From positions 992,001 to 1,056,000 of the forward strand of contig NZ_CP071463.1 in assembly GCF_017352095.1 (NCBI RefSeq): DNA of 64,000 nucleotides. Direction: 5' to 3'. This document shows positions 9,902 to 61,679 of this stretch, in pieces. The notes under the pieces were generated by a model. It had not been told where the DNA came from. It did no database searches and was given only the letters and a program-made list of their open reading frames with translations. Both the position numbers and the translations under genes were made by a program. The DNA comes from Natrinema longum (GTDB lineage Archaea > Halobacteriota > Halobacteria > Halobacteriales > Natrialbaceae). Position 1 is the first letter of the stretch; every line of letters begins with the position of its first letter.

Positions 9902-10008
9902 AGCCTATCATGAAGCGCCGGAACTAAATCCGTACTCGCTTCGCGGGAGTCGTTCACTCGTACGACGACCGAACGATACCGGTACTGACAGTAGAGACCG
10001 ATTCTCGG

Positions 10009-43653: not shown

Positions 43654-44583
43654 ATGGACGTACGGTTTCTCGGCGGTGCCGGCGAGATCGGTCGGAGCGC
43701 GCTCTGTATCGACGAGACGCTCGTTTTCGATTTCGGGATGGACTCGGGGAACCCGCCGTCGTTTCCGATCGGCGACGTCGATCCCGAGGCCGTCGTCGTC
43801 AGTCACGGCCACCTCGATCACGTCGGCTCGGTGCCGGCGCTGCTGTCCGGCGACGCGCGCCCCGAAGTTCACTGGACGCCCCCGACGTACGACCTCGCCA
43901 TGGTACTCGCTCGGGACACGCTGAAGCTCCACGGCGGCAGCTACGACTGCCCGTTCACCGAGGCGGAGCTCGCCCGCGTCGGGGAAGTCTCCGAGACCCA
44001 CGGCTACGAAGAGTCCTTCGAGGCCGCGGGCTACGAGATTTCCTTCTTCGACGCCGGCCACGTCCCCGGCAGCGCCCACGTGCTGGTCGACGACGGCACG
44101 ACTCGACTGCTCTACACCGGCGACTTCCACACCGAGGAGCAACGGCTGCTCGCCGGAACGACCGCACGGCCCGACGCCGACGTCGTCGTCTGTGAGAGTA
44201 CGTACTCGGACGCGACTCGACCGCCCCGCGAGGAGATCGAACGCGAATTCGCCGAGAGTCTCCGGACGACGATCTGGGAGGGGGGTACCGTCGTCGTCCC
44301 CGCCTTCGGCATCGGCCGGACTCAGGAAGTCCTCTGCATCTGCGAGGCGTACGACCTCGAGTGCTACGTCGACGGAATGGGCAAACGCGTCACGGAACTG
44401 TTCTTGCGCGATCGGAACCGCGAGTTCCTTCGCGATCCGGAGCTGTTGCGCCGAGCGAAGGCCAACGCCCGGTTCGTCGACGGGCGCGACGGCCAGCGCG
44501 AGCGGATCGCCGAACAAAATACGGTCATCGTCACGACGAGTGGGATGCTCGGAAACGAAGATTCGCTAGCAGTCGCTGACTAA
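43654..44583 (+). pseudogene. Beta-CASP metallo-beta-lactamase nuclease, truncated by the island
   Basis: 309 aa remain; family members of this kind are about 400 aa. The metallo-beta-lactamase core is intact (HGHLDH at residues 51-56, GHVPGSAHVLVDD, TGDFHTEEQ) as is the start of the beta-CASP domain (CESTYSDATRP, VVVPAFGIGRTQE). Just after NTVIVTTSGML the family sequence ends and a foreign tail GNEDSLAVAD and stop follow. The missing part contains later beta-CASP motifs and the final metal ligand, so the product is probably inactive. The joint near 44,550 is the left end of the integrated island. Confidence 0.82.
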
Positions 44584-44659
44584 TCCAATTCTTCTGGAGG
44601 CATAGGTCATTGGTTTTGATAGCATAAGTTCTATTGCTTGTCAATCAGTGGTTCCGATA

Positions 44660-45706
44660 ATGCCCGTTGGACGGTACTTTCGGGGCCTCACGTCATTTGA
44701 TCTATTGGGAAACCTGATTCCAGGTCTGCTAACGCTTGTTGCGGTACTACTATTTCTTCCAGGACCGAGACTCCCGTCAACTCTTCTTGGGTACTCTTTA
44801 TTTGTGGTCCTAGCTTTTGTGGTTGGGTCAGTGGTTCAGGGACATGCTTCGAAGGCCGGTGGTGAACGAACGAGTTTTGACAAAACAATGACCGCAGCGG
44901 AATCGCTTCCAGGCCTTTCAAAGTCTCAACCTTCTTCGGGCGGAAGTGGCGAAGCGGGAGATAGCGAAGCAGGGGATGGCGAAGCAACCTCTGACTCAGA
45001 GTCATCGAAAGGAATGAGGTATGTCGCTGGCGGATTTCTCCATGCCGTTCTCGGACCGCTTCTTTGGTGGTGGCGTCTCCCAGAGCGAGGAGAACGTCTT
45101 GATGACGCTATCCTGATCAATCGAATTTGGAGTCACCTGTCCTCCACATACAGTATTCCCGATAATACAGATTCACTAGGCGTCCTTTATCACCTCATGT
45201 CTAGTCGAGTAGATAATATTCAATCTCCATCTCGTGCTGTGCGTATGCAGGCGATCCGCAATTTTCAGCGGGGTCTTTGGATTGCGGCTTGGTATTCTAC
45301 CGTACTGGTTACTGTAGCAATTATAATGGATCTGATTTTCCAGCCCGGAGATCAAATCTACCCAGGCGTGGTCTACGCGCGTCCAGCGTACTATACGTAC
45401 TGGACACCGGTGTGGAATCTAGCAATAGTGGGGATTGTTGCTGTAGTTCTCTTCTGGTGGCTCTTTGAATCATTTGAGGAGGATTATGTCGAGTATCTCT
45501 TTGTAGACTATGCGATTGGGATTCAGACACCGAGCCAAGAACTCCGGTTCTCAAATGACGATGTGCTTCAACTATCTGGTTCACTGACCAGCGAACTTAC
45601 AGTGGACTCACAATCTCTGAACGGTTTAGATTCAAAGTCTAATTCCCCAGATACACAGGGATCTCCTGATAACGATGAGTCCCCCAACGAAAGCCAAGAA
45701 AATTAG
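44660..45706 (+). CDS. Island membrane protein of unknown function
   Basis: 348 aa from ATG 44660; a GTG at 44648 is the alternative. Membrane segments: LLGNLIPGLLTLVAVLLFLP, GYSLFVVLAFVVGSVV, GLWIAAWYSTVLVTVAIIMD and LAIVGIVAVVLFWWLFES. A Ser/Gly/Glu/Asp-rich loop lies between the second and third, and the C-terminal tail is Ser/Asn-rich. Codon use is AT-rich, unlike the chromosome to the left. It is the first gene inside the island. Four-helix proteins in such islands may be membrane effectors, but nothing in the sequence proves that. Confidence 0.7.
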   Translation: MPVGRYFRGLTSFDLLGNLIPGLLTLVAVLLFLPGPRLPSTLLGYSLFVVLAFVVGSVVQGHASKAGGERTSFDKTMTAAESLPGLSKSQPSSGGSGEAGDSEAGDGEATSDSESSKGMRYVAGGFLHAVLGPLLWWWRLPERGERLDDAILINRIWSHLSSTYSIPDNTDSLGVLYHLMSSRVDNIQSPSRAVRMQAIRNFQRGLWIAAWYSTVLVTVAIIMDLIFQPGDQIYPGVVYARPAYYTYWTPVWNLAIVGIVAVVLFWWLFESFEEDYVEYLFVDYAIGIQTPSQELRFSNDDVLQLSGSLTSELTVDSQSLNGLDSKSNSPDTQGSPDNDESPNESQEN

Positions 45707-46005
45707 CCTGACAGTCCAACAGAGTTCAGATTACGAGCAGAGGAGTTCTGAACGCTCTCGTCAACTTCAAGAATATCCACCACTCGCCAATCTGGAGCAG
45801 TTTCTGAGCTGCTCTGGAGGGTTACTTTACATTGATCACCAACAGATAGGGATCTAAGTCGTCCCGTTAGGTCTCGGTCATACTCCTCATGGACGACTGG
45901 CACGGAAATCCGGCGACCTTGATCCTGGCCAGTCTGGACTTGCAGCCAGAGATTTCCGTTCTGTCTGCCGACGACTTTGAACCAGGCCGGTTCCGTGACT
46001 AGCAT
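45703..46005 (-). CDS. Island small hypothetical protein
   Basis: 100 aa: MLVTEPAWFKVVGRQNGNLW, then a beta-rich core (RRISVPVVHEEYDRDLTGRL; GDQCKVTLQSSS; WRVVDILEVDES). The strand-turn rhythm suggests a small barrel, perhaps OB-like. It converges with the membrane-protein gene and overlaps it by 4 bp. No family name can be given. Confidence 0.6.
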   Translation of the reverse strand: MLVTEPAWFKVVGRQNGNLWLQVQTGQDQGRRISVPVVHEEYDRDLTGRLRSLSVGDQCKVTLQSSSETAPDWRVVDILEVDESVQNSSARNLNSVGLSG

Positions 46006-46139
46006 GGGATTGGCTATTCTGTCCCTCCACTATTAAAATTGTGTGCTATCCATTGGCTGTTCACAGTCATCCTTGCACTATTAGTGGAGAGAACGATTTG
46101 AAGCTATCAGTGCCTTCTCAATTGAGATGTAGATGTATT

Positions 46140-47285
46140 TCAGTATGGTCCAATACCTAGCTTAAATACGTTCTCACGATAGATGTTCTCGATGTCGTCG
46201 TAGTACGTGTGGAGATACACGTCGATTGCTTCGCCGTAGTCGACTGCTGCGTCGCCGATCGCGTCTCCGCGCATGTATTTGACTAGTTCTCGGTTGAGGT
46301 CCTGGTCGATACGCCAGAAGCTGGAGAACCAGTGTCGTCCGAAGTGACTCGTCACTGCTTCGTGGTGCTCGGTTTCGGCGTACTTGGGATGGAACCCGGT
46401 CTTCCACGCCTCGTTGATCCTTTTAGGCCATAACTTGTCATGGCGCTGGTCGGAGAGGAACATCCACGGCTCACCGTTGTCGGGTCGAATGAGCAGCCAC
46501 TGGACGAGGAGTTGACGCATTTCGTCGTCCAGCGGCAGGACGCGCCCTCGTTTGGACTTGTTCCTATCCCGCTCGTCTGCGGGCGGGATGTAGATTGCAT
46601 TTTCGTAGTCACGAACCTGAGGATGCGTTCCCAGCTCCGGATAGCTCTCTTCGATTCCGGGGTGCTGGATGCTCACGTCTTTGAGCTTACTGTTGCAGAC
46701 TGCTCCTGCTCGCATCCCCAACTTGAGTTGCGCGCAGACAAAGCATCTGTCTCTGATGTGCTTGATCGCCCAGATCCCCTCTCGTAGGTCTTCGAGGGGG
46801 ACATTCGGGTGATCCTTATCTGATTCCTCTTTCTTCCACTCACGGAACGGAATCTTCTCGCGAGCAGCCTCAATCGGGTTGAAATCTTCACCGTGAGGAA
46901 ACACCGATTCACGCTGCCAATACTGATATGCACCGTTCAACACTCGCAGCTGCGGTTTGATAGTCCCGACATCATGGTCTCGATCTGTCCGCTGCGCTTC
47001 GGCGAAGCTCGTGATGTGGCTCGTGTTTGCGCAGGCGTAGTGCCGACCCTGCTCTTCCATGTGCTCTTTGAACTGCCGGAAGATCCTTCGATAGTCGTTT
47101 TCCCGCTGGCTCGAGAGCCCTCGTGACTCAATCACCTCTTTCATGTATACCTCGAGAGGGTCGACATCGAGGATCTGAAACTGTTCTTCGTACTTCGCGA
47201 GCGGATCAGCCTCTAGGTCGAACGCGTCAGCGAAGGCCTGTCGCTGTGCGTCGATACCGTCGTTATTCCTGTTTTCATTACTCAT
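46140..47285 (-). CDS. Tyrosine recombinase (island integrase)
   Basis: 381 aa from ATG 47285 (MSNENRNNDGIDAQ). The core-binding domain includes NDYRRIFRQFKEHMEEQG; the catalytic domain has R192 (KLGMRAGAVCNSKL), a basic beta-hairpin with GRVLPLDDEMRQLL, H314-x2-R317 (SHFGRHWF) and a Tyr pair at 361/362 (HTYYDDI) as nucleophile. All catalytic elements are recognisable, so it should be active in integrating and excising the island. It is the last gene of a four-gene minus-strand module (48,546 to 46,140) with overlaps or short gaps. Confidence 0.88.
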   Translation of the reverse strand: MSNENRNNDGIDAQRQAFADAFDLEADPLAKYEEQFQILDVDPLEVYMKEVIESRGLSSQRENDYRRIFRQFKEHMEEQGRHYACANTSHITSFAEAQRTDRDHDVGTIKPQLRVLNGAYQYWQRESVFPHGEDFNPIEAAREKIPFREWKKEESDKDHPNVPLEDLREGIWAIKHIRDRCFVCAQLKLGMRAGAVCNSKLKDVSIQHPGIEESYPELGTHPQVRDYENAIYIPPADERDRNKSKRGRVLPLDDEMRQLLVQWLLIRPDNGEPWMFLSDQRHDKLWPKRINEAWKTGFHPKYAETEHHEAVTSHFGRHWFSSFWRIDQDLNRELVKYMRGDAIGDAAVDYGEAIDVYLHTYYDDIENIYRENVFKLGIGPY

Positions 47286-47290
47286 GGGTG

Positions 47291-47752
47291 TTACCTCGAA
47301 CTGACTTTTGCGTCCCAAATTCGGCCAGCGGTATCGTACTCCACCGCAGCCATCAGGAACGGCTGGTAAACATGAGGATGATCAGTTCGTGCGAGCAGCC
47401 AACTGTAAAACCGCTCTAAACGAACCCAGTAATGGTTGTACACCGTCCTGACGTTCCGTCGGTCCAGTAGTGATTTACACCACTGGTCGACGTCAGCAGG
47501 GGTCGCGAGTGCGTGGTGGCGACCACGATCGGCCATGTGTTCCTTCCAGAGCTGTCCCGCACGGCAAGTGTCCTGCCGATACCGATCACTCGAATACTGC
47601 GGGAACAGATGGTCCTCAAGGAACGTCTCCCAGACGTCTTTGTCGCGGTACGCAGCAGCGTGCTGATTCAGGCGGTACCGCGAAGGCACCTCCTCGAGAC
47701 GCTTGTAGACGCCGAGGCGGTCTTTCGGGTCTTCGGAGAGTTCACGCGGCAT
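47291..47752 (-). CDS. Stand-alone recombinase core-binding-domain-like protein
   Basis: 153 aa. It reads like the N-terminal half of the neighbouring integrase: both have a helix ending in an acidic/basic EHM segment followed by GRHHALATPADVDQW here and GRHYACANTSHITSF there. Then comes NVRTVYNHYWVRLERFYSWL, the fourth helix of a SAM-like core-binding domain, and HPHVYQPFLMAAV where a catalytic domain would begin. No Arg/His/Arg/Tyr catalytic set follows. The integrase starts 5 bp after its stop. It probably modulates integrase binding or direction. Confidence 0.7.
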   Translation of the reverse strand: MPRELSEDPKDRLGVYKRLEEVPSRYRLNQHAAAYRDKDVWETFLEDHLFPQYSSDRYRQDTCRAGQLWKEHMADRGRHHALATPADVDQWCKSLLDRRNVRTVYNHYWVRLERFYSWLLARTDHPHVYQPFLMAAVEYDTAGRIWDAKVSSR

Positions 47753-48200
47753 CCGCGACCCCCTCCTGTGGCTTCATCGTTGCAGGATAGTACCGATCAC
47801 CAACGGTCTCTATCGAGTCGCCCTGCAACGCATCCAGATGCCCGTTTATACGATCTGGAGCAGTGTCGATGATATGCTGCGTGACTTCCTCGTATGTTGC
47901 TCCAGGGTTTTTCTCGACGTAGGTCCGGATCGTCTCGCGTTCCGTCCCATGGAGTTGATCCTCTAGCGTGTCGATGCGGTCTCGGGCGCGTTCGAGTTCG
48001 TCTTTTATATCGTTACGTTGCTCTCGCAGCTCACGATGAGATTCGTCCGGTTCAACGCGAGCATCGAACTTCTTCAATCCGGCCTCCACCATCGCTTGAA
48101 TAAATTCGCTGATGCTCATCCCGTACTCTTCCGCACGGTCTGCCCAGCGATCGTACTGCTCTTCGGTCGGATATGCGGTAGCGGGTTGCGACTCAGACAT
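47742..48200 (-). CDS. Island DNA-binding-like protein (RHH + coiled coil + wHTH layout)
   Basis: 152 aa. Residues 8-45 (ATAYPTEEQYDRWADRAEEY, GMSISEFIQAMVEAGLKKF) resemble a ribbon-helix-helix unit. Residues 50-90 form a charged coiled coil (ELREQRNDIKDELERARDRI), and the C-terminus (TIRTYVEKNPGATYEEVTQH) looks like a winged helix. It overlaps both neighbours by about 8-10 bp. It is likely a regulator or directionality factor for the integrase. The function is inferred from position. Confidence 0.65.
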   Translation of the reverse strand: MSESQPATAYPTEEQYDRWADRAEEYGMSISEFIQAMVEAGLKKFDARVEPDESHRELREQRNDIKDELERARDRIDTLEDQLHGTERETIRTYVEKNPGATYEEVTQHIIDTAPDRINGHLDALQGDSIETVGDRYYPATMKPQEGVADAA

Positions 48201-48546
48201 CCTTCCGAGGTTCTGGACCGGTACGTGACGATCTCACTTCGGCAAATCGAAGCTGGCCGTTCTCTACCCAGTAATCGAGGGCACGGACGCCGTCAAGCTC
48301 GACTCCAAGCAGATGCAACTCGGCAGCACTCAGCGTAATCGCGATACCGAGAGGATCTCCGTTCGCGTCTCGATTTACGGTTGCTTGCCGTTGGTCCGAA
48401 CCGTTTCCGATGGCCTGTACTTTGGACCAATCGTCTGGATCGCCGTAGGGACTGTTCGTGCACTCGTTACTGGGAGACCAATCTGGCCAGGCTACCTGCT
48501 CCTCCGTATCGTACCAGGTCCCAGAAGAGCCGATTTCACTCCCCAC
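48193..48546 (-). CDS. Island small hypothetical protein
   Basis: 117 aa from GTG 48546. Trp/Asp/Ser/Asn-rich start (GTWYDTEEQVAWPDWSPSNE), then a short alpha/beta part (PLGIAITLSAAELHLLGVEL, RALDYWVENGQLRFAEVR). The stop overlaps the next gene by 8 bp. It is the first gene of the integrase module. No motif is recognised. Confidence 0.55.
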   Translation of the reverse strand: MGSEIGSSGTWYDTEEQVAWPDWSPSNECTNSPYGDPDDWSKVQAIGNGSDQRQATVNRDANGDPLGIAITLSAAELHLLGVELDGVRALDYWVENGQLRFAEVRSSRTGPEPRKDV

Positions 48547-48730
48547 AGCCTATTTCACCTCTATTCAGGGTACATCGATTATCTTCATACATCGTTTCCA
48601 TCCCCAGATTATGGCCAGCGATATATAAAAGTGGCCCACTATTTGGTCATATAGATAGAGAATATAATGGCCACAACTGCGAATCGATAGGGGACACTAA
48701 TAAAAAGGCAACGTGCGTACGATTGCGAAA

Positions 48731-49324
48731 ATGCGTCGTATCCAGCCGAACTGGCTGAATGAAAACGATGATCTAATCCTCGAATTACTGGGAAAGAGCG
48801 GTGTTGCTCTCAATAAGCGAGGGATTGAGTTGAACCTCGAACTTAGCGACAAGTCCGTCTCGTATTCGACGATCAAGAGGCGAATCGATAAATTGGCTGA
48901 AGCAGGCTTTGTAGAACAAGCTCGCGAGGAGGGGTCCTATTATCGCATCACGGGGAAAGGGGTCAGCTATCTCACTGGTTCACCATATGGGGCGTCCACA
49001 GCGGGAGATGAACCCGTAGAAGTAACAGAGATTGAGCCACTAGATTATGAAATTCTCGATGCGATTCATAGCAGTGACGAGCCCCCAGAAGTTGACGAAA
49101 TCATTGCGGTTGTCTCCGCTAATCCCGAGCGTATACGGGATCGAATAGAGGATCTCATCTCGGATGGAACCGTTACTGAAACGTCAGAGAACCAGCTCAA
49201 ATTGTCGCTCGGAGGTCAGTATATACTTCAAATGTTCCGATTGGGCTCGGATGTAGAAGGACAGATAGACCGATACGGCGTCGTAGATTTAGACGATGGA
49301 ACGAACCAACATCAGAGGGGATAA
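48731..49324 (+). CDS. Winged-helix repressor, haloviral PhiH1-repressor type
   Basis: 197 aa. The N-terminal 90 residues (QPNWLNENDDLILELLGKSG, YSTIKRRIDKLAEAGFVEQA, YYRITGKGVSYLTG) match the wHTH family of phage PhiH1 repressor-like proteins. A second wHTH-like unit follows (EPLDYEILDAIHSSDEPPEV to LISDGTVTETS). The start ATG at 48731 was preferred over an in-frame codon 18 bp earlier because an AT-rich element (CTAATAAAAAGG) lies just upstream. It is divergent from the integrase module and probably keeps it silent. Confidence 0.75.
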   Translation: MRRIQPNWLNENDDLILELLGKSGVALNKRGIELNLELSDKSVSYSTIKRRIDKLAEAGFVEQAREEGSYYRITGKGVSYLTGSPYGASTAGDEPVEVTEIEPLDYEILDAIHSSDEPPEVDEIIAVVSANPERIRDRIEDLISDGTVTETSENQLKLSLGGQYILQMFRLGSDVEGQIDRYGVVDLDDGTNQHQRG

Positions 49325-49326
49325 TA

Positions 49327-49980
49327 TCAGATAGGAATAGAAGTTCTTGTTTTTAGGAAAACCCGTCCACTATCAGTTATATCGACAGTTTTACTCCTTC
49401 CATCCTTTCTGGTGTGTACGAACCCCTCAGATTCTAGGCTATTAATATGGCGCGCGATTGTACTCTTCGACTTATCAAACTCATCTGCTATCTCACTTAT
49501 TGATAAAACTGCATCCAAATCGTGGAGGTCGGCGAGAAGAGTCGCTTCGGCGTCCGAAACTTCCCCGCGAAGATTCAAGCGTGGTAACCGTCGGACGCTG
49601 CTATCTATATCGCCTACTTGGAGCACTGTGTCGATATTTGCACCACTAGTGAATGTCGCGACTGTTAGTGGCAACAGTAATTCTCGCGCACCACCACCCA
49701 AAATAACGATGGTGTCCCCTTCCGATGCTTGGATGAGATCAGCACAGTACAACGTTGTCTCGACAAAGTCTGTGTACGGTAGATGCTCTGTTTCTAAGTC
49801 TAGGTCCGGGACTACCTGTGTCAGGACATTTTGAACTTCCTGAAAAGCATCCTCTCCTCTATCGGAACTGCTTGCGGGTTGCAGTAATACGACTCGATCT
49901 CCTGTTTCTATGCCTTCACTCAAAACTGGTCTGACTACTCGTCGACTATCGAATCCCAATGGAGCGAGGTATGTGCGCAT
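49327..49980 (-). CDS. csa3: Csa3-like CARF-HTH transcription regulator
   Basis: 217 aa from ATG 49980 (MRTYLAPLGFDSRRVVRPVL); the open frame continues upstream to 50043 but homologues start here. Residues 1-140 form a Rossmann-like CARF domain with LSEGIETGDRVVLLQPA and the Gly-rich ligand loop IVILGGGARELLLPLTVATF. The C-terminal winged helix has SISEIADEFDKSKSTIARHI and LESEGFVHTRKDGRSKTVDI. Csa3 proteins bind cyclic oligoadenylates in type I/III CRISPR systems, but no cas effector or CRISPR array is present here. It faces away from the defence-like operon, with 437 bp between the starts. Confidence 0.82.
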   Translation of the reverse strand: MRTYLAPLGFDSRRVVRPVLSEGIETGDRVVLLQPASSSDRGEDAFQEVQNVLTQVVPDLDLETEHLPYTDFVETTLYCADLIQASEGDTIVILGGGARELLLPLTVATFTSGANIDTVLQVGDIDSSVRRLPRLNLRGEVSDAEATLLADLHDLDAVLSISEIADEFDKSKSTIARHINSLESEGFVHTRKDGRSKTVDITDSGRVFLKTRTSIPI

Positions 49981-50417
49981 ATCGATAGTATCTGCTCGAA
50001 GCCTCGTTACTGTTCCGGAATAGTGCAACAGTACGCACCGCATCCGAACAGAAACGACGAGAAAGGGTCAGAAATCACTGGTATATCGGATGTCTTGATT
50101 TAGTTCCCGACGTGCCGCATTACATTATCGCAACTCACGACGAACTGTTTCATCGCCGATAATTATATGATGATTCGACAGAGAGTGTGAAGTGTTCGCT
50201 CATCTCGCCGGCGGGGCGAGTAGAGGCATCTGCGTAATTATAATCTCTCCGACAGTTTTATGTGGGTCCCGGTCAGACTGCTATGCGTCCGCATCCTACG
50301 TTCACGGCCTGAGAAGGCTGAGAACGACGTAGTGATAGCTACGGTCAATGGGTGCGTGCAGACGGCGTCCATCCCACACCGACGCCGAAACCAACTCCCA
50401 AGCGATCACCCAGAACG
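49981..50417. promoter_or_regulatory. Shared control region of the CARF regulator and the helicase operon
   Basis: 437 bp with no convincing gene. AT-rich blocks (ATAATTATATGATG about 50158-50171; GTAATTATAATC at 50233-50244) suit promoters on the plus strand. A hairpin with a 6-bp stem, CTCGCC/GGCGAG, lies at 50204-50220. The first operon gene may start at ATG 50418 or at GTG 50352, so the leader is about 110-180 nt if transcription begins near 50,240-50,270. Confidence 0.5.
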
Positions 50418-51284
50418 ATGCACGATCCACCCGACTCAGAGACGCCAGCATTAGCGGACTTCATCGGAACACGGGATTCGTTTCTCGTGATTCGGGATCC
50501 GCAACTAGCAAAGACTGGTTCGCAAGCACGTGCGCAACTCAGGTCGTTGCCGTTCCTCGCCGAATTCGGCCTCGATAGAGTTTCACATCCGGAGATATAC
50601 GATAACGGGTTGCGACTCGTTGAGTACGAACTGTTTCCGAACGAGGACCTCCGAGAGCATGGGGTGGGTGGTGTCGAGTTTCCACTAGTTCACTACGTCA
50701 GCCAAGAGATGCTGACGGGAGAACTACGGGACGAAGACAGCACATTCGACGATCAAGACGTTATTCGGCGGCTGCTGCGGAAGCGCCCGGAAAGTCTGCC
50801 ATATGTGCTCGTCACTGACACGAGCACACCAAAGATGCCCCGTCATACGAAAAAACCAGGGAAATCGTTCATCGACGAGTTCGAGTGCACGGTCACCGAT
50901 TACAAAGGACTGCTAAAGCGGTACATACAGTACAACCTCGATTCGGATCTACCGCTATCAACGACGCAGAATCTGTTCTTCCATCAGATTTCTGCGCATC
51001 ACAAACAGGAAGGTCTCGAGGCAGGCTCGATTCCGGTACTCTTCGATTACACGCAGATTCCGGCTGACAGTCCCGCCTGGGCACCCCTCTACTACCTCAT
51101 TCGAGAGGACGTAGACCGTGTACTGGAAGATTACTCCGAGCGCATCAGAGAGGCGCTCCGTTCGTGGACTGAGCGCGGGCCCACGCAGAAAGTCGCGAAC
51201 AGCATGCTCGACATGCTCGAACGTGTAGAATTCGAGGAAGATCGATTAGACAGTTATCGTTATCGCCACCAGGAGGACATATGA
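50418..51284 (+). CDS. Defence-like operon gene A, unknown
   Basis: 288 aa from ATG 50418; GTG 50352 would add 22 Pro/Thr-rich residues. It begins MHDPPDSETPALADFIGT. Conserved-looking blocks are GLRLVEYELFPNEDLREHGV, PLVHYVSQEMLTGELRDEDS, a basic SFIDEFECTVTDYKGLLKRY and FHQISAHHKQEGLEAGSIPV. No membrane helix, P-loop or clear nuclease triad is seen. ATGA overlap with gene B shows the operon is translated as a chain. The function is unknown; substrate recognition or a nuclease role cannot be excluded. Confidence 0.75.
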   Translation: MHDPPDSETPALADFIGTRDSFLVIRDPQLAKTGSQARAQLRSLPFLAEFGLDRVSHPEIYDNGLRLVEYELFPNEDLREHGVGGVEFPLVHYVSQEMLTGELRDEDSTFDDQDVIRRLLRKRPESLPYVLVTDTSTPKMPRHTKKPGKSFIDEFECTVTDYKGLLKRYIQYNLDSDLPLSTTQNLFFHQISAHHKQEGLEAGSIPVLFDYTQIPADSPAWAPLYYLIREDVDRVLEDYSERIREALRSWTERGPTQKVANSMLDMLERVEFEEDRLDSYRYRHQEDI

Positions 51285-52210
51285 GTACAACATACACACC
51301 GGCGACCAACAAGCCGGACAAACTACTCACCGGGTTCATCTCGGTGCGAGCACCGGAGCTAAAACACATCTACGGCTCACTTCAGGGGACCACCAGTGTC
51401 TCGGAAGTCACGAGCAAATTCGGTCGACCAGCCACCGGCGGTGAGGTGAAAACCGATCACGTCGAAGGGTCACTTCGTTTCCTGAATGCGGTCGACCTTG
51501 TCGAGAGTCCGACCGGGGACATCAAAGATACGGTCGAACCCATTAACGAGCGGCACTTCGAGGGCCTCCCTTTCGAAGCACGGTTGCTATACCACTGCAA
51601 TCAGCAGGACGGTCGTCAGTCCCACTTTGGGGATGTTCACCGTGCCCTATTGAGTGAGGGGAGCCGAACGGTGAACGCTGGCCGAGACAACCTTCGAACC
51701 ATCCTGAAGCGCGAGACTGACTACGACTTCAGTTGGACTGACGAGAAGATCGACATGTGGGTGACGTTGTGCGAGCAACTGGGTCTTGTGTCGGAGACCG
51801 AGGACGGTCTCGTGCTGAGCCCCTGTCGGGCAATGATGTACGACGCGCTCGTACTCGCCCCAACTAGTTCAGGAGAGGACGCAGGCTACGACGGAGAGAC
51901 AGTTGAAAACGGTGAATTCCGACGCGCACTCAACTGGATCAACGACAACCTGTTCACCGTCTACAAGGCACGAACTGGAACGCCGCGGCTTCACCCTGCA
52001 ATCGCTGACGTCCTCCGTAACATGGAGGAAGATGGGGTCCTGTCCCTGTCTGCACCCGGCGACGCGCAGAACCAGGTAGAAGTGCCACCAGCAGACCTCG
52101 ACGATGACGTCCGCGGAAACAGACGAAGCGTGACGCACGTTTCGATTCATTCTCGACCGGACGAAACGGCGTATCAGTACCCTCTCGACCAACTTCTTAC
52201 TCACCAATGA
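51281..52210 (+). CDS. Defence-like operon gene B, unknown (DpdG-sized)
   Basis: 309 aa. It begins MSTTYTPATNKPDKLLTGFI. Residues about 30-75 (HIYGSLQGTTSVSEVTSKFG, SLRFLNAVDLVESPTG) have a winged-helix look, and a second such unit may lie at LWTVTLC-type residues near 160-185 (MWVTLCEQLGLVSETEDGLV). The middle contains LLYHCNQQDGRQSHFGDVHR. Its start overlaps gene A and its stop overlaps gene C by 4 bp. The position before a 1000-aa ATPase and the length recall DpdG of 7-deazaguanine systems; sequence homology could not be tested. Confidence 0.75.
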   Translation: MSTTYTPATNKPDKLLTGFISVRAPELKHIYGSLQGTTSVSEVTSKFGRPATGGEVKTDHVEGSLRFLNAVDLVESPTGDIKDTVEPINERHFEGLPFEARLLYHCNQQDGRQSHFGDVHRALLSEGSRTVNAGRDNLRTILKRETDYDFSWTDEKIDMWVTLCEQLGLVSETEDGLVLSPCRAMMYDALVLAPTSSGEDAGYDGETVENGEFRRALNWINDNLFTVYKARTGTPRLHPAIADVLRNMEEDGVLSLSAPGDAQNQVEVPPADLDDDVRGNRRSVTHVSIHSRPDETAYQYPLDQLLTHQ

Positions 52211-55200
52211 GCCAGCAAACCGAAGATTCACCGGCCAGCGGAGAGATGCCCCACTACTGGGACGACGACGAAGTCGACCACTTCATCACGTCGGAAGCCC
52301 ACACGAAGAAGAAGACGCCCGAACAGTTCCGAGAGACCCACGTCGACATCGATCGTATTTACGCAGACACGCTGACCCCACTCGGTATCTCGGGCGACTT
52401 CGTCACCCAAGAGAACGTACTCGACGCGATTACTGCCTCGAATATCGACGACCCGAACCGTATTTTCATCCTCCGTGGTGAACCAGGGTCGGGGAAAAGC
52501 CAGCTCTGTGAGTGGACGAAGTACCAGATAAATGGGTACGGCAAGGATGACGACGGTGTTGAAGACTACGTCGCCCTGCACGTCTCCCGTAGCCAGACCC
52601 GAATGGATCAGATCATCGATGTCCTCACTGAGCCACTCGATGTCGACACCGATGTCAGAAACATCGATGATCTCGACCCTGCCGATGCGGCGAGTGCTAT
52701 CGTCGAGTATATGCGCGGCATCTGGTCAACCGAGCACTTTTCGGACCAAGAGATACAGGAGCTGACCGAGAACAGAGGCGATAATAGCGACCTGCGAGAA
52801 ATCTTCGCCAAGAATATCAGGGAGTATCAGGAGGCTCTCGATTCTCGTGACGAGAATCCTGACTTCAATCTGCTAACCCGCGCAGATTTCCGTACTCTAC
52901 GCCTGCAACTGAGCTTCAGTACGAAGCTCACGGAGAACAAAGACGTTCTGTACTCTGTCCTGAAGAACGAGGCTCACGAATACCTTTCCCGCAATCTCGT
53001 GGGCGACTTCAAGGAACAGCTACAGCAATACTCGGAGATGTATCAGGAGCGAGGTATCCGGCCGGTACTCATCTGTGAGGACCTCACGACGTTCAGCGTC
53101 CTGAAAGAGCAACTTCTGGATCACATCTTCGAACTCAGTAGTAGCAGCTACGACATCGTTCTCGGTTGGACGGTCGGCTGGGAGCAGGACAACATCGACG
53201 ACGCCCTCGCTCGCGAAGACGCAGCGACGTACATGCAAGGGCGATCCGAGGGGTACCTAACGATGACCGACGAGAACGGCGAGGCGTACTTCCTCGACGA
53301 CGATGCTTCGGTAGCTCTCGCCCGATCGTATCTAGGTGCCATCAAACGGAATTCTGATGCGGCAGACGCGCCTCAGGACGTCGCAGAAGCTTTCGACGGT
53401 TTGTACCCGTTCAACGAGCGCTTCATACACGTCGCTTATCGACAGCTAAACGACGAAGGAAGCAACCGGAAGACGCCTCGACTGTTGCTTCTTCGAGTGG
53501 TCAAGCACTGTCTCAAGTCGACGTGGGCACCTTACGAAGCGATGAAGTCGAACTCGTTCGTCGACACGCCGACCTTCGAGATCGACATGAAATACGACCA
53601 AATCTACCAAGACGTCAGCCGCTGGTACGGAGTACCTGTCGAGGACGGCGTCGGGGTCAAGGTCGGCATCTTCGAAACGTTCGGCATCGAACTACCGGAC
53701 GACGACATTGCCGCTGTGAAAGGCGATTACGTCGTGTTCGACAAGGGCAAAGGGAGTGCGGTACTCGATAAGATCAAGAATCCGCCGGTACCGGATCACG
53801 AGGTCGATACCGAGGACGACGAAGACGACAAAGAAAGCAACTCTCCTGAGGGCGAAGAAGGCAAAGAAGCAGCAGACGACGAGGAGCCAGAAGACGAGCA
53901 GGTTGAGGTCATCGACGAACCAGAACTGAGCGAGGAAGAACGCGAGCGACAGCGAAAATTCCAAGAGTTCCAAGACTGGGTCACGAGCGGCGAGGAGTAT
54001 CCCAGTTCGGACACGCTCCACGACGGCGCAGTCGCCGTTCTCAAACGGTGGCACAACCCCACACGCCTGAGTAATCCGAACTCCTCGACGCGGTCGGTCG
54101 GTGGGATCTACTACGCTCGCGGCGACAGTATCCCGGTCTCCATTCAGGGGGACCAACAACGTCAGGCTAGCGTCGACATCGAACTCGAATGGGGTGCAGA
54201 ACACGCCGATCTCTATACTCCGATGCTGGAGTACGGACTGTTCGATATGTTCGATCCAACGACGACGAACTTCGATCAGCTCCGTGCGTGGGCAGACACT
54301 AACGTCGCCCAGTTTCAGCATGAAATGCGCGAAGAGATCGAGGACTGTCTACCCGAGGAGCTCACGATAGAGAAAACGCTGGTCCTCGCACAGTTCTTCC
54401 TTATCAACGCTGCCCGTGGTGTGGAGGTCGACGACGATCAGATTCCCACAGAAATCGCCTTCGAGGAGTACGACAGCAACCAGTCGTACGGTAAACCGAT
54501 CGTCGAAAACTTCGATCGAGATAGCGCGTTTGGACAGGCGTTCACCAACCTCACCGTGTCGTCGGGAGATATTAGTGACCTCATCGAGGGGTTCTTCCTC
54601 CTCAAATCGAACGTCGTAGACTACGAGCGCCTGTCTGAAGCACGTAGGGAGGTTGCCGAAGACCTAGAGGCACACGTCGACGCTGCGATGGTCATCGATA
54701 CCGACGAACTCGCTGACGCGTACAAAGTCGGAACGACGCGAAATAACGCCAATACCAAGGTATCGAGTCTCTTCGATCGGATTTCGGATTACGCAGCAGA
54801 ACTCCAGCGGCTCACGGTCGACGACGACGCATCACACATCCAAAAGGCGCTTGAACCCGTTGAACGGTGGTACGACAGCGGCCATACGGTCGATCAGCTC
54901 GCAGAGTGGTTCGAGACGTTGTATCAGTGCGCAGGTGCGATGGACGTGCCGATCAAGTCGAGTTACGAGGACGCCTACGAACTGCTCACCGAATCACCGG
55001 AGGAAGTGAAGCTCACGGCCTTCCGTGATGACGTCGAGCAGTTCCGGAACATGGGCGACGCAACCGGTGTGACGTTCATCGCCCGACTTCACGACTTCGC
55101 CCGGAGCCAGGACGAACAAGCAGCGTGGGAGATATACGGGGCGTTCGACTCGCTGATCAGCGATCTCCAAGATCAGGAACACGCTACCGGGGCCGATCTC

Positions 55201-55284
55201 GAACATCGCATCAAGCAACTCAGCGAGTACAGTAACTACGAGCAGAAGCGCCAGTCGATCGTCTCTCTGACGGAGGATCTGTAA
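52207..55284 (+). CDS. Defence-like operon gene C, large P-loop ATPase (DpdH/BrxC-like layout)
   Basis: 1025 aa. Walker A GEPGSGKS at residues 91-98 and a Walker-B-like strand PVLICED at 286-292, followed by SYDIVLGWTVGWE as a sensor-like strand, define an AAA+/STAND-type ATPase in the first 350 residues. Residues about 527-590 are a very acidic linker (TEDDEDDKESNSPEGEEGKE). The C-terminal 400 residues are helical, with no known catalytic motif. It is coupled to gene B by an ATGA-type overlap and lies 1 bp from gene D. It probably powers assembly or movement on DNA. Named homology is not established. Confidence 0.82.
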   Translation: MSQQTEDSPASGEMPHYWDDDEVDHFITSEAHTKKKTPEQFRETHVDIDRIYADTLTPLGISGDFVTQENVLDAITASNIDDPNRIFILRGEPGSGKSQLCEWTKYQINGYGKDDDGVEDYVALHVSRSQTRMDQIIDVLTEPLDVDTDVRNIDDLDPADAASAIVEYMRGIWSTEHFSDQEIQELTENRGDNSDLREIFAKNIREYQEALDSRDENPDFNLLTRADFRTLRLQLSFSTKLTENKDVLYSVLKNEAHEYLSRNLVGDFKEQLQQYSEMYQERGIRPVLICEDLTTFSVLKEQLLDHIFELSSSSYDIVLGWTVGWEQDNIDDALAREDAATYMQGRSEGYLTMTDENGEAYFLDDDASVALARSYLGAIKRNSDAADAPQDVAEAFDGLYPFNERFIHVAYRQLNDEGSNRKTPRLLLLRVVKHCLKSTWAPYEAMKSNSFVDTPTFEIDMKYDQIYQDVSRWYGVPVEDGVGVKVGIFETFGIELPDDDIAAVKGDYVVFDKGKGSAVLDKIKNPPVPDHEVDTEDDEDDKESNSPEGEEGKEAADDEEPEDEQVEVIDEPELSEEERERQRKFQEFQDWVTSGEEYPSSDTLHDGAVAVLKRWHNPTRLSNPNSSTRSVGGIYYARGDSIPVSIQGDQQRQASVDIELEWGAEHADLYTPMLEYGLFDMFDPTTTNFDQLRAWADTNVAQFQHEMREEIEDCLPEELTIEKTLVLAQFFLINAARGVEVDDDQIPTEIAFEEYDSNQSYGKPIVENFDRDSAFGQAFTNLTVSSGDISDLIEGFFLLKSNVVDYERLSEARREVAEDLEAHVDAAMVIDTDELADAYKVGTTRNNANTKVSSLFDRISDYAAELQRLTVDDDASHIQKALEPVERWYDSGHTVDQLAEWFETLYQCAGAMDVPIKSSYEDAYELLTESPEEVKLTAFRDDVEQFRNMGDATGVTFIARLHDFARSQDEQAAWEIYGAFDSLISDLQDQEHATGADLEHRIKQLSEYSNYEQKRQSIVSLTEDL

Positions 55285-55285
55285 A

Positions 55286-56122
55286 ATGAGCGAATCGAAA
55301 TCACTACCGACGGCTGTTGACGCCCTCGAAGACAAGGCTCGAGAACACAAGCAGGCACAGAACACGCAGTATCACGTCTCTGTCGCGCGGCACAACATCA
55401 GTGAGGTGAACGACGAACTCGACGAACTCGCTGAGCGCCTTCGAGACCTAAAATACTACAAGACAGTGCTTGAGGAGGCCTTCGACGGTTCCGCGCCATC
55501 GATGACCAGTAGTGCGGTTCAGGTGGCGGAGAAAGGGGTCGAGGTGACTCAAGAGGATCTGCTCGAGAACGTCCAGAGCGACGATATGGGCGAGGGGAAC
55601 GCAGAACTCGACGATCTTGGCGCAGACGGTCAGAACGACCTCGAAGTCCAACTGACACCGGACGTCGAGACGCAGATCAAGCAGATTCGGTCGGCGAAGA
55701 AGCAGGTAAAGAACGTCACCGAAACCATTGAGGGTCAACTCGACAGCAAGCGCGACGAGTGGAGTACAAAGGTCGCAGCGGCAGAGGAACTCCAGAAGAT
55801 CCTCGGTGGGCAGGACTCGGACTTCGCGCGTACACTCAACCACATGCACACGTTGCTGACACGAGAGTTGATGGACTTGAGCGGAAGCGCCACGAGTTTC
55901 GTGTCAAAGTGGGATAACGCCACCAGCGACTGGGAGAAACATCAATCGCTCCAGAGCTTCGACGACTTTCAAGAGAAACACGACCTCTCAGACTCCACAA
56001 TCGAGGACGTAAAGACGCTCAGTAAGTCACAACAGCTTACGTTGGCGGATGTCTCGCTCGACTCGCTCGAGGAGATGAAGCGCGTGGATGAACTGGAGTC
56101 GGCGGTGGAACTCAACCTGTAA
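55286..56122 (+). CDS. Defence-like operon gene D, coiled-coil protein
   Basis: 278 aa, almost entirely helical and acidic. Heptad regions lie at residues about 25-65 (NISEVNDELDELAERLRDLK) and 125-175 (QIKQIRSAKKQVKNVTETIE). A Gly/Asp-rich hinge separates them. No enzyme motif is present. It sits between the ATPase and the helicase, 1 bp and 2 bp from its neighbours, and probably bridges them. A protein of this size and place (DpdI) exists in Dpd systems; the match is positional only. Confidence 0.78.
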   Translation: MSESKSLPTAVDALEDKAREHKQAQNTQYHVSVARHNISEVNDELDELAERLRDLKYYKTVLEEAFDGSAPSMTSSAVQVAEKGVEVTQEDLLENVQSDDMGEGNAELDDLGADGQNDLEVQLTPDVETQIKQIRSAKKQVKNVTETIEGQLDSKRDEWSTKVAAAEELQKILGGQDSDFARTLNHMHTLLTRELMDLSGSATSFVSKWDNATSDWEKHQSLQSFDDFQEKHDLSDSTIEDVKTLSKSQQLTLADVSLDSLEEMKRVDELESAVELNL

Positions 56123-56124
56123 CG

Positions 56125-59100
56125 ATGAAGGATCCCGTCGCCAGCGCGGAACAAATGCAGGCTGCATACCACGACTACTTTATCGGTCGTGGGGGACGAG
56201 CTGCGCGTAGTGTCGCTAATCGCCTGGCGGACGGCGAGGACGACATCACGGGGATGCGCGGCCCCTACCTTCAGGCACTCGACATCCCGAACTGGAGCGG
56301 CCGTTCGTGGGACGCGTTCGCCAGGTCGGCACGTCTCGAGCCGCATATCCGCCGGGCTTTCTCGAAGATCGGCTTCGAGCGGCTCTACGACTTCCAGGAG
56401 CGTAGTATCGAGGCCATTCTCGAGGGAAATGATACCGTCATTACTGCCGCGACGGGACGAGGAAAAACTGAAGCGTGGCTCATTCCTATCCTCAACCGCA
56501 TCCTCGAAGACAAACGGCACAGTGACGGGGGAGACGACACGAGCGTCAAGGCTACGCTCATCTATCCAACAAAGGCACTTGCGCAGGACCAGTTGAAACG
56601 TCTCCTCCAGTACCTCTACCTCATCAACAACCACCTACGGTCGGAACAACAGATCACCGTCGGTATTTACGACGGTGATACCCCGCGGAATGTCGGCGAA
56701 TCAGGCTCCGAAGGGTACCTCAATGCGACCTTCCGTCACTTCGAGTGCCCTGGGTACAATGACGAACTCGACAAATGCCAAGACTGCGGTGGTGGTGTTC
56801 GGATCCGAAACACCGGCGCTCGGTTCAAACTCATTCCAGAGAAAGCGCACTGTGAAGACGATGAACCGCACGACGTTCCGCTCGATTTCCTGCGGCTAAC
56901 GAAGAACGACATCCTCGAGAACGGCGTTGACATCCTGCTCACCAACCCGGACACGATCAACTACCGACTCATCAACACTAACGCCGAAGACGAACACGAG
57001 CGGTTCGTCTACGAACCCGAGTTCCTCGTCTTCGACGAGGTCCACACCTACGACGGCCTGTTCGGGAGCTACACGTCGACGCTGATGAAGCGAATCCAGT
57101 CGCTCCGCGAGGAACGCGGCCTTGACGACTTACAACTCGTCGCGAGCAGTGCGACCGTCGAGAACGACGTCGAGTTGTTCCAGAAGGTTAGCGGTGCCGT
57201 CGATGTCAAACAGGTGAGTGAGTCACCACGCGACCTCGATGGGGAGGTTCCGGACGATGTTCCGGAAGAGCTAATGTCGCACAGTCTGTCCGTCGACCGC
57301 ATTCTGCGTGCGACGGCCGCGCCGGACGACGTTGTTCCGGGCCTCGATGCGTTCGACTACACGCTGGAGGATGCATCGAGTTACGACCGTGACCGCCGGG
57401 AGACGCTAGTGAGTGACGCTCTCTTCGACCATCTCACCGAGGTCGAGGATGACCTCGGCGCACAGGTCGTTCGCTACGTCCACCAGTTGCTGTACGACGA
57501 GCCGCTCACACGGTCCCAACTACACGACGAGTTAGCGACGACGCTGAATCTCGACACCGATGAAGCATCGAAACTGGTGTCGAACGTCCGGACCCTCGGT
57601 GAGTTTTCCGGTATGCTGGAGAACCGAAGTCACGTGTTCTCTTGGCCGATCGACGGCTTCTATACGTGTCCATCGTGTGACGCGACGTACCGCTCCCCAC
57701 AGGACGACTGTAACGAGTGTGGATTCGACTTCGTCACGCGCTCTACCTACTGCCGACACTGTAGCGACGAACACCTTGTCGGATGGTACTGTCCAGGCTG
57801 CGACCAACTAGAGCCGTACACGCCGACCGAACACGGGACGATCGACCAAGACGAGGAACACGTCTGCCGCCGATGTGAGGAAGCGCGCGACGATGTCGTC
57901 CAGATGGTTCGTACGACGTTCCAGCCGTTCCTCGAGTGCCTCGACTGTGGACTCCGAACCGAGCGAACGACGACCCGTGACTGTCCCGAGTGCGGTTCCA
58001 AGACCGTCAGGACCGACGATAAGACGTTCACCTGCGTTAATCCGAAGTGTGAGTCGGCTCACGAGATCGAGCGAGTCTGCGACAGCTGTGACGGGTCCGA
58101 CTTCGGACTAGCTACTGTTGCGAATCGATTCGATTGCCCGGAATGTGGCGCGACTTACGAACACCCCGAGCAGGCCCCTGACCAGTGTGTCGACTGTGGT
58201 TCCTCACTCACCTCGACGAGGTTCCTTCCCTGGGTCTGTGGGAGCGACGATTGTAGCCGGGTCCTCTTCGATGATTCCCCCAATCAATGCGACTGTGGCA
58301 CATCGTCGTTCGTAAAGCGCGGACTCTTCGAGATTCACGACGACCAACACTGCCGTTCGTGTGAGACGGCATTCCTCGGCGACGAGGGTTGCAACTGTGA
58401 CGATCCGGACATTCATCCGCGGACCGGTCACCATCAGGCCTACAAGACGATCGACACCAGTGGGTGGATTCACACGATGAGTTCGCAGCCGTCGGCTGTC
58501 CCGTGCCCGCATCCGTATGCCCGGTACGAGATTGACCGCCGGTTCGACGAACTGATGCGAGGTCCGAGCAACCTCGCGGTGACCACCTCGCAGTACATGT
58601 TGCGCCGCGTGGCCGACGAGGAAGGCCAACAGGCGGCGAAGCTCCTGTCGTTCGCTGACTCTCACCGTGACATGAAGGAGCTCAGTCGTGACTTCTCGGA
58701 ACCAGAGGTCGAGACCCTTCTCGATCAACTGTTAATCGAAAGTGCGTCGTCCCGTAATGACGGGAACGACTGGACACCGTTTAATCAAGTCCTCGAGGAT
58801 GCGGCGAACATCGTCGACGAGGTAAACGATGCACTGGAACCGCCGCGAGTCGCGAGGAGTGTCGAGTTTGACCTGAAGTCACGATTGAAAGATCAGCCCC
58901 GAAAGCGCTGGGACGACGATGACGCGCTTCGGGATCGACTCACCCGACGCGCACTCGAACACACCTACAGCCAGCGTTTGGGCGAGCGGGACGGCTCCCT
59001 CACCGAAGAAGGACTGCTCGATGTCCGCTTTGCCCCAGGTCTCGACGAACTCGATGGTGATGAGCGCGCTATCGTCCGCGAACTCGCCGACGAAGGCAAT

Positions 59101-61653
59101 GACTATCGTGTCGCAAACTTCGACCATCCGAGTCCCGACAGGCCCGCCGAAGCAGTCGTCGACGAACTGGTCGACCGCAATATCCTCTCCTACGGGCACT
59201 CTGATGACTACGTCTCGTTCGATCCGTCGGCGCTCGCTGTTACGGTTGCGGGCGACGGTGATGGTATTCGGTTCGACCCTGATACTGAGCGGTACTACAC
59301 GATGCTCCAGCACCAGTTTGGTCTAGATACGCAGTCCACTGTTCAGTCCGGAACGTCGCTCGCCGAACGTGCCTCGACCTCCCATCCCCGGTTCACACAG
59401 CGTGCCCACCGTGCCGAATACTCAGAGACGCGGATTCTCATCTCTGAGGAGTATCTCGGGGCGACGAATAAGCGCAAACGTCGGGAGTTAGAGTACCTCT
59501 TCCGCGAGGAGAACTACCCCCACCACCTCTCTTCGGGACCGACGATGGAACTCGGAGTCGACATCGGCGACCTCGACGCACTCCTGCTGTATGGGACGCC
59601 GCCGAACATGAACGCGTACCTCCAGCGGGTCGGGCGTGCGGGGCGCAGCTCCCATTCTTCGATGGTTCACTCGGTCAGTCAGCGCAACCCGATCGACTAC
59701 TACTACTACGACCACCCGGACGAACTCATCGACACCGATCCGACTCCAGTACCGCTCAACGAACACAACGAGGAGGTCCTACGCGTTTCGCTGTCGTGGG
59801 GGATCTTCGACTACGTGGCGGCTAACTTCACTATTCCGTGGGATGTCAGTCGACACGGTAGCGCGCGGTCGATCGATGGTGGAGATACCTATCACCGTCG
59901 GAGCATGCTTAACGAGAGCGAACGTGACGACGCCAGTAAACTGACCCACGTCATGTCCCTCGGTGCCGACACGCTGTCGCTCGGCAGCGACGACTCAAAA
60001 CTCGACGTACTCGGCGAAGTCGTCGACGACTACGAACGAGACATCGCCGACTACCTTGAATCTCTCCTCGACTACCGCTACTGCGAAGAATGTGAGCGGC
60101 GGTACGCTACTGACGACGACCGCGAAACGTGTACCAACAGTGACTGTGATGGAGAAATCCTGCACGCTCAGAGCGAGTTCGGCCACCTTGTCGACGACGT
60201 TCTCGCGAACTTTGACGAGCGCTACATCACTGGATACCGTGAATACAAACGGGGACTGGAAAGTGAGTTGTCCGACCTGAAACGACGTAACTCTCGATTG
60301 CGTCGTGACCAGCAGCGGGCCGGGTCAGACGAACGGGCACGCATCATGCGCGAACGCCGGGGCCTCAAGGACCGCATCGAGGTTCTCGAGGACTACCTCT
60401 CTGATCTGGGTGGTGCGAGCTACTTCGACTTCCTCAGAGAGTCCCGTGAAAGCAAATACGACTTCTCGATGCGGAGCGTCGCCACGACGGCCGGTCTGTC
60501 CCTGGTCGACGAAGGGTACAACCGCCGGAACGTCGGCGATCAGGGGAGCGGCCGCGCGATGCAGATGGCGCTCTCAGAACTCCACCCCGGTGCCGCCTAC
60601 CTTGACGGCGGGGAGACGTACACCGTCTCGCGCGTCCGACTCGACGACAAGGCTAGCTCGGACCTCCGTGATACCGTGAGCGAAGCCGTCGACGGAGATC
60701 ACCTGGCCGAGGAACTCGTCTGTCCGGCGTGCCACACCTCGCACGACCTCGACGCTGACGGGTGTGATTGCGATAACGATGTGCCGCTCAAGCGACGCCG
60801 ACTGGCGGTACTCGATTCGGTCGATGCCTACCACGACAACCTCAAACTGACCGCAGAGGGTGACGAAGCGCGCTACCTCCACGACGAACCGAACAAACCG
60901 ATCCAGAACACGTACGCCGAGCGGGAGACGTCGATACTCGAGTTCGACTCTGAACGGACGTTCGAACTCCAGGATGCCGATGGCGATCCTCTCGGGACGA
61001 TCGAGTACGGCGATTACTCGGTCCTGCTGCATACGAAGAGCTACAAGACGAAGTACAAGTCCGGTGAGGTCGATCCGAGGCCGACAGCCTTCGAGGTATG
61101 CGGTGAAGAGAACTGTCCAGGCGTCATCTATCGTGACGATGACGACGAGCGTCGGTGCAGCGCCGACTCCGACCACTTCCCTAACGGCCGCGGGGCTGAC
61201 TCCGAGTTCATCCGCCTTGGATACCAGTACGATACTCAGGGTGTCCGAGTTGACCTCAATGACCGCGACCTGTCGCACACGTTGGCACATGGCCTCCGAG
61301 TCGCGCTGCAATACCTCGGCGGCGTCAACATTCGTGACCTCGCCGAATATGTCGGCGAGGAGCATGTAGATGTCTTCGAGTCTCAGGAAGGCGGGTCCGA
61401 TGTCGCGCGTCTCCTCTTCGAGCGGACGGACGGAGAGTTCCGGGCGTTCCACCGTGCAGTCGGGCTTATGCGCGATCAGTTCGACTGTGACTGCGAGAAC
61501 GGGTGTCCGTCCTGTCTCTACCAATACGGCTGTGACGTCAGGAACGACCAGCGGTCGTTCGACCGAGAACGTCTTCGAGACATCCTCGCCAACGGTAGCG
61601 TGATCATTCAACCGATCACGAACCACGAAATCGACGAACAGCTCACCGACTGA
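56125..61653 (+). CDS. Defence-like operon gene E, giant DUF1998-type helicase with a zinc-knuckle array
   Basis: 1842 aa. SF2 motifs: Q91 (YDFQERS), motif I ATGRGKT (109-115), motif Ia YPTKALAQDQ, motif II DEVH (304-307), motif III SSATVE, then the second RecA lobe with ELGVDIGDLDALLLYG and motif VI QRVGRAGR (1167-1174). The C-terminus has the Cys cluster of the DUF1998/MrfA family (C1788, C1790, C1794, C1797, C1803). Between the lobes, residues about 515-757, lie about eight pairs of zinc knuckles (for example CRHCSDEHLVGWYCPGC). It is presumably a DNA translocase or helicase. It is preceded by gene D at 2 bp and followed by a paralogue. Confidence 0.88.
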   Translation: MKDPVASAEQMQAAYHDYFIGRGGRAARSVANRLADGEDDITGMRGPYLQALDIPNWSGRSWDAFARSARLEPHIRRAFSKIGFERLYDFQERSIEAILEGNDTVITAATGRGKTEAWLIPILNRILEDKRHSDGGDDTSVKATLIYPTKALAQDQLKRLLQYLYLINNHLRSEQQITVGIYDGDTPRNVGESGSEGYLNATFRHFECPGYNDELDKCQDCGGGVRIRNTGARFKLIPEKAHCEDDEPHDVPLDFLRLTKNDILENGVDILLTNPDTINYRLINTNAEDEHERFVYEPEFLVFDEVHTYDGLFGSYTSTLMKRIQSLREERGLDDLQLVASSATVENDVELFQKVSGAVDVKQVSESPRDLDGEVPDDVPEELMSHSLSVDRILRATAAPDDVVPGLDAFDYTLEDASSYDRDRRETLVSDALFDHLTEVEDDLGAQVVRYVHQLLYDEPLTRSQLHDELATTLNLDTDEASKLVSNVRTLGEFSGMLENRSHVFSWPIDGFYTCPSCDATYRSPQDDCNECGFDFVTRSTYCRHCSDEHLVGWYCPGCDQLEPYTPTEHGTIDQDEEHVCRRCEEARDDVVQMVRTTFQPFLECLDCGLRTERTTTRDCPECGSKTVRTDDKTFTCVNPKCESAHEIERVCDSCDGSDFGLATVANRFDCPECGATYEHPEQAPDQCVDCGSSLTSTRFLPWVCGSDDCSRVLFDDSPNQCDCGTSSFVKRGLFEIHDDQHCRSCETAFLGDEGCNCDDPDIHPRTGHHQAYKTIDTSGWIHTMSSQPSAVPCPHPYARYEIDRRFDELMRGPSNLAVTTSQYMLRRVADEEGQQAAKLLSFADSHRDMKELSRDFSEPEVETLLDQLLIESASSRNDGNDWTPFNQVLEDAANIVDEVNDALEPPRVARSVEFDLKSRLKDQPRKRWDDDDALRDRLTRRALEHTYSQRLGERDGSLTEEGLLDVRFAPGLDELDGDERAIVRELADEGNDYRVANFDHPSPDRPAEAVVDELVDRNILSYGHSDDYVSFDPSALAVTVAGDGDGIRFDPDTERYYTMLQHQFGLDTQSTVQSGTSLAERASTSHPRFTQRAHRAEYSETRILISEEYLGATNKRKRRELEYLFREENYPHHLSSGPTMELGVDIGDLDALLLYGTPPNMNAYLQRVGRAGRSSHSSMVHSVSQRNPIDYYYYDHPDELIDTDPTPVPLNEHNEEVLRVSLSWGIFDYVAANFTIPWDVSRHGSARSIDGGDTYHRRSMLNESERDDASKLTHVMSLGADTLSLGSDDSKLDVLGEVVDDYERDIADYLESLLDYRYCEECERRYATDDDRETCTNSDCDGEILHAQSEFGHLVDDVLANFDERYITGYREYKRGLESELSDLKRRNSRLRRDQQRAGSDERARIMRERRGLKDRIEVLEDYLSDLGGASYFDFLRESRESKYDFSMRSVATTAGLSLVDEGYNRRNVGDQGSGRAMQMALSELHPGAAYLDGGETYTVSRVRLDDKASSDLRDTVSEAVDGDHLAEELVCPACHTSHDLDADGCDCDNDVPLKRRRLAVLDSVDAYHDNLKLTAEGDEARYLHDEPNKPIQNTYAERETSILEFDSERTFELQDADGDPLGTIEYGDYSVLLHTKSYKTKYKSGEVDPRPTAFEVCGEENCPGVIYRDDDDERRCSADSDHFPNGRGADSEFIRLGYQYDTQGVRVDLNDRDLSHTLAHGLRVALQYLGGVNIRDLAEYVGEEHVDVFESQEGGSDVARLLFERTDGEFRAFHRAVGLMRDQFDCDCENGCPSCLYQYGCDVRNDQRSFDRERLRDILANGSVIIQPITNHEIDEQLTD

Positions 61654-61679
61654 CCAACATCCCACACCAATTGCCACCG

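Follow-up and report, generated by a model that had tools for sequence, protein, structure and literature searches.

A 42-kb integrative element in the haloarchaeon Natrinema longum (genome G000) probably disrupts a conserved beta-CASP gene and supplies a whole replacement copy of it, a reading to which we give a probability of about 80% from the sequence comparisons described below. The DNA analysed, hereafter the window, is the 64,000-nt stretch G000:C1:992001-1056000, and positions given without a prefix refer to it. The resident open reading frame, an aCPSF2-like beta-CASP gene, begins with ATG at 43654 and is 87–92% identical over residues 1–301 to uninterrupted homologues, which are ~412 aa in length. 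A preliminary description of the window had proposed that this gene runs normally to TTSGML and then ends in a short unrelated tail, that base composition shifts at the same point, and that an island boundary therefore lies near 44,550, in a coding gene and not at a tRNA. Each of these points was confirmed. The break falls after codon 299 (TTSGML), at GATGCTC (44544–44550, forward strand); nucleotide identity with relatives ends at ...GGGATGCTC, window position 44550, and G+C drops from ~62–67% before this position to 47–53% past it. The homologous part is followed by an unrelated, island-encoded tail of ten codons, GNEDSLAVAD-stop (44551–44583, forward strand), and the window contains no tRNA in its 64,000 nt. 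The boundary and core sit in a conserved part of the beta-CASP gene, in agreement with the earlier suggestion that the recombination site occupies a conserved stretch.

The remaining 5′ piece comprises 299 codons (43654–44550, forward strand). The supposed loss of the C-terminal third is real in kind but smaller in size, amounting to a quarter of the protein (113 of 412 aa). Two beta-CASP motifs, DFSAHAD and NHGD, fall in the lost part, and because these are gone the split resident piece is predicted to be inactive. The proposal that the host gene is inactivated thus holds for the resident copy, but the island contains an intact divergent copy, and loss of the cell's function is therefore probably not the outcome.

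Two features anticipated for the right end of the island, the 3′ part of the beta-CASP gene and a matching core repeat, were both located. The 3′ piece occupies G000:C1:1078520-1078859, beyond the window and 41,976 bp from the 5′ piece, with the missing part of the gene at C1:1078530-1078859. The island itself is 41,976 bp in size; its left part occupies 44551–64000, and it runs on to G000:C1:1078519. The 7-bp core GATGCTC is present at both ends, and the same 12-bp arm stands beside each in opposite orientation: the left end reads ...GTGG-GATGCTC-GGAAACGAAGAT, and the right end, with the 12-mer inverted and ahead of the core, reads ATCTTCGTTTCC-GATGCTC-CACGG. The 19-bp core-plus-arm string has an exact inverted counterpart at the other end, which was the sole zero-mismatch hit in the 45-kb region scanned. 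Because inverted 12-bp arms flank the 7-bp core, a circular form of the element would carry a palindromic tyrosine-recombinase site, ATCTTCGTTTCC-GATGCTC-GGAAACGAAGAT; dyad symmetry is strong in the element's site and, judged by eye, weak in the host site. A search of viral contigs for the attP pattern returned none, and no circular form was found. One viral contig with an attL-like 18-mer was set aside as a chance match.

Uninterrupted homologues, which the preliminary description had proposed for comparison, were found in relatives, among them the conspecific genome G268, which contains one whole beta-CASP gene of the resident type. When the G000 flanks were joined with a single core, the resulting sequence was 95% identical to G268 and aligned without a gap over the junction, and the outer flanks were collinear. 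The locus thus has the identical short core at both ends and the single-core empty site expected of a tyrosine-recombinase element.

An integrase operon is situated 1.6 kb in from the island's left end. Its tyrosine recombinase (392 aa; 46140–47318, reverse strand) matches PF00589 with an E-value of 7.7e-08 and has the catalytic-type stretches GMRAG and TSHFGRHW as well as the C-terminal Tyr, so that a Phage_integrase domain with catalytic residues is found near one end, as in other elements of this kind. The second gene encodes a stand-alone 153-aa partner (47291–47752, reverse strand) that resembles the integrase's own N-terminal core-binding region (BLASTP E 2e-05 to the integrase), and the third a winged-helix-like protein of 152 aa (47742–48200, reverse strand) with weak, sub-cut-off Pfam matches. 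Both are kept in G079 (Halorussus litoreus) and G183 (Halobacterium bonnevillei), where relatives of the integrase, at 93% and 78% respectively, occupy the same left end. Integrases of at least 78% identity were found only in G000, G079, G183 and, as a pseudogene, G138, each within ~3 kb of the left end; plasmids and phages gave distant matches only, or none. In seven other genomes with integrases of 43–49% identity, a split gene with a spare copy was absent from the stretches read, and the trait therefore seems confined to this integrase subclade.

The island contains a second, complete beta-CASP gene, the spare, which encodes 410 aa and is 67% identical to the broken gene. It lies outside the window at G000:C1:1073380-1074609 (equivalent to window 81380–82609, forward strand), 3.9 kb inside the right end, and has its own upstream region, a similar one being present in G079. 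The spare and an aCPSF1 paralogue at C1:627887 are the only intact family members in G000. Both the spare and the broken gene are KH-less and CPSF73-like, 410–412 aa long, and align only to the catalytic regions of CPSF73/FttA; a beta-CASP domain with its motifs and no N-terminal KH domains places them among aCPSF2-like proteins. The G000 and G079 spares differ by 90 synonymous and 28 nonsynonymous codon changes, and the spare is thus under purifying constraint. An IS1595-family transposase (G000:C1:1074710-1075642) lies 98 bp past the spare and is not in the Halorussus island.

We scanned a 392-genome sample of the order for the left-end sequence. Exact matches inside a beta-CASP gene were found in G000, G079, G183, G190 (Halomicrobium katesii) and G260, against a chance expectation of ~0.2 exact matches for the whole sample, estimated from sequence length; a genus set added left ends in G018 and, in decayed form, G014. 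A further exact match in G189 was taken as chance, the sequence diverging directly after the pattern. Eight left ends have GATGCTC-GGAAACGAAGAT-YC-GCTAGC in common. The inner arm (GGAAACGAAGAT followed by TCGCTAGCAGT; 44551–44573, forward strand) is found in these eight and, inverted, in four right ends, which when read inward present a close variant of the left arm. We also considered that the junction in G000 might be an assembly artefact or a chance rearrangement without site-specific integration. The junction is known from assembled sequence, but G000 is a single contig and the left junction is identical to the base in G079, G183, G260, G190 and G018, which makes this explanation extremely improbable.

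The full layout is present in G079, in the order 5′ piece, 38.7 kb, spare (93% identical), 2.4 kb and 3′ piece, and the joined flanks of this genome gave a gapless alignment to a congener. In the draft assembly of G183, the site, arms, integrase and spare are spread over three contigs; G098 has the spare and the right end, and partial versions of the layout occur in further genomes. Nearly all cargo is common to G000 and G079, mostly at 94–99% identity although the families differ, which points to recent transfer. With G183 the overlap consists of the spare, the integrase operon and a regulator, and on the contigs read little other cargo matches. At 49327–50043 the G000 island has a CARF/Csa3-like regulator (PADLOC E 1e-85), which lies away from any CRISPR genes observed. 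A larger part of the G000 cargo, at 52207–64000 and G000:C1:1056001-1070623, resembles a Dpd (7-deazaguanine DNA modification) system, with DpdA (3.8e-73), a TGT-domain protein, DpdJ-like giant helicases, a weak DpdH and a BrxC/D-like ATPase; the gene set is incomplete relative to the known Dpd system.

Phylogenetic trees of the two parts of the gene separate resident from element-borne sequence. In the N-part tree the broken pieces fall beside relatives of their hosts (G000 with G268, G079 with G138, and G260 with its congener G251), and the spares of G000, G079, G260 and G003 form a moderately supported cluster that spans families (SH-aLRT 82–89). In the C-part tree the 3′ piece of G000 groups with G268. 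A paralogue of host origin, the first copy having become a pseudogene where the island happened to land, would also place two related genes within 42 kb, yet we consider it highly improbable: identity of the second copy is 67% to the first vs 93% to the Halorussus island copy, the two fall in different groups of the trees, and G268 has a single copy, of the resident type.

The C-part tree further places the copies of G001, G005, G014, G018 and G349 with their genus (99), their N-parts being placed elsewhere, and the G260 copy with its congener (96). These differing placements indicate that several genomes hold a chimera of an element-derived N-part and a host-derived C-part. Several genomes retain no more than decayed pieces of the old gene and, beside them, a spare joined to the host's 3′ end; in several, no whole copy exists apart from the spare or its chimera. 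The chimera breakpoints lie within ~75 nt of the core, only three of them being well placed: estimates using imperfect proxies fall 50–64 nt before the core in G005, G014, G018 and G349, and the others fall 22–75 nt after it in G001, G013 and G260. The idea that the integrase made the chimeras of the former four genomes exactly at the core was dropped on account of this offset.

The spare lacks an intact core and reads AATGCTG in its place, the changes being synonymous. At this site, 71 of 95 other copies have GGG-ATG-CTC, and in six copies from genomes with split-gene pieces the codon ahead of ATG is GGA or GGT and the codon behind it CTG or CTA, again all synonymous; the copy of G260 differs from the core by a single base. 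The core is altered in 6/6 linked copies vs 24/95 others (Fisher p 0.0005, with no correction for shared ancestry, which the spares do have). Among 164 sites of 33 resident genes, CTC ranked tenth and GGG 21st in uniformity of synonymous choice, and from the codon usage of the spares themselves an intact core is expected only 7–30% of the time. Codon drift could account for the altered core of the spare, and escape from the integrase by way of that alteration is plausible.

Under a further alternative, the spare would be ordinary cargo: an additional RNase, of use in its own right, that the island happens to carry and that has no connection with the broken gene. Islands this large bear many unrelated genes, and the host gene may be dispensable. 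In G190 (stretch L113) the beta-CASP gene is likewise split; its left end is standard, but the right arm differs and the two pieces enclose other genes. Since no whole copy was found in that genome, the gene is not strictly essential. We nonetheless judge this alternative unlikely. Among the cargo genes a single one is homologous to the target, and it is this one that recurs at the same site in G000, G079, G183, G098 and G260, even where little further cargo is common, and the spare or its chimera serves as the only whole copy in several genomes, as described above. Two left-end matches were found outside beta-CASP genes. On contig 5 of G013 (stretch L116, near position 9230) the left-end sequence GATGCTCGGAAACGAAGATCCGCTAGCAGT lies outside any beta-CASP gene; on contig 10 of G138 (stretch L117, near position 9930) there is a decayed relative of the island with an integrase pseudogene and DpdA/TGT genes. 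Both may represent a secondary site or loss of a flank. The G138 relative has no visible spare, and the resident gene is whole, a single case that fits the idea of replacement.

Replacement of the disrupted gene by the element's own copy, the reading we favor, could proceed as follows. The 42-kb element would enter when a tyrosine recombinase crosses its palindromic site with GATGCTC in codons 297–299 of the resident aCPSF2-like gene, which the insertion would split; the presumably active integrase and its two partners would carry out this step. A complete divergent copy with its own upstream region would ride on the opposite side of the attachment site from the integrase, and because attP lies between them in the circle, the two would travel together more readily. 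Since the exact core is absent from the spare, it should be immune to the integrase, and if expressed it may take over the function of the split gene. The island would later decay, and in some lineages the spare would recombine with the host 3′ remnant, leaving a chimeric gene as the sole intact copy. Tentatively, and with less than even confidence, we suggest that this amounts to a natural break-and-replace device: on entry the element inactivates a conserved gene and provides an integrase-proof whole copy, and once the split resident gene decays the element itself is hard to lose. A mobile element would in this way exchange a core RNA-processing gene across archaeal families. In synthetic cleave-and-rescue cassettes, one cassette inactivates a resident gene and bears a recoded version of it. 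The present element likewise both breaks the resident gene and brings an altered version; here, however, inactivation would be by insertion, with no nuclease acting in trans, and the likeness carries no claim of an advantage in spread.

This case shows how an element can exploit a mid-gene site in a conserved protein gene with no lasting loss, and it offers a concrete route for replacing a core gene by a foreign one; attachment site, spare and integrase form a compact set. Past replacements are recorded in the chimeras of several genomes, and the phylogeny of this gene is accordingly not purely vertical. The supply of part of a target gene, namely its 5′ end, is already known; a non-exhaustive literature search found no whole-gene replacement by an element, and the whole separate copy appears to be new. 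SXT, which inserts in prfC, and the dusA islands provide their target with a new N-terminus by in-frame fusion at the junction (PMC8409611). The present element resembles these in that integrase-driven insertion in a conserved protein gene is compensated by the element's coding sequence. It differs in that the compensating sequence is an entire gene, separate from the target, which has an upstream region of its own and lies 3.9 kb inside the island, and in that the right junctions of G000 and G079 join a non-coding arm to the 3′ piece, with no in-frame fusion.

Integrated elements in archaeal protein-coding genes are also known, and those described in the relevant sections of PMC6563490 and PMC8371274 likewise combine a tyrosine recombinase with short core repeats; no replacement gene is described in those sections. 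The Thaumarchaeota elements treated there use 3′-distal gene ends, whereas the present site is internal and symmetric. The haloarchaeal SNJ2, as described in PMC8371274, similarly has its integrase in an operon with two small, possibly assisting genes, but its site of 13–14 bp lacks a stem-loop, and by description the present partners differ in that one is homologous to the core-binding region of the integrase itself. In its discussion of archaeal protein-gene sites, the same review leaves their dyad symmetry open, and the palindromic attP predicted here bears directly on that question.
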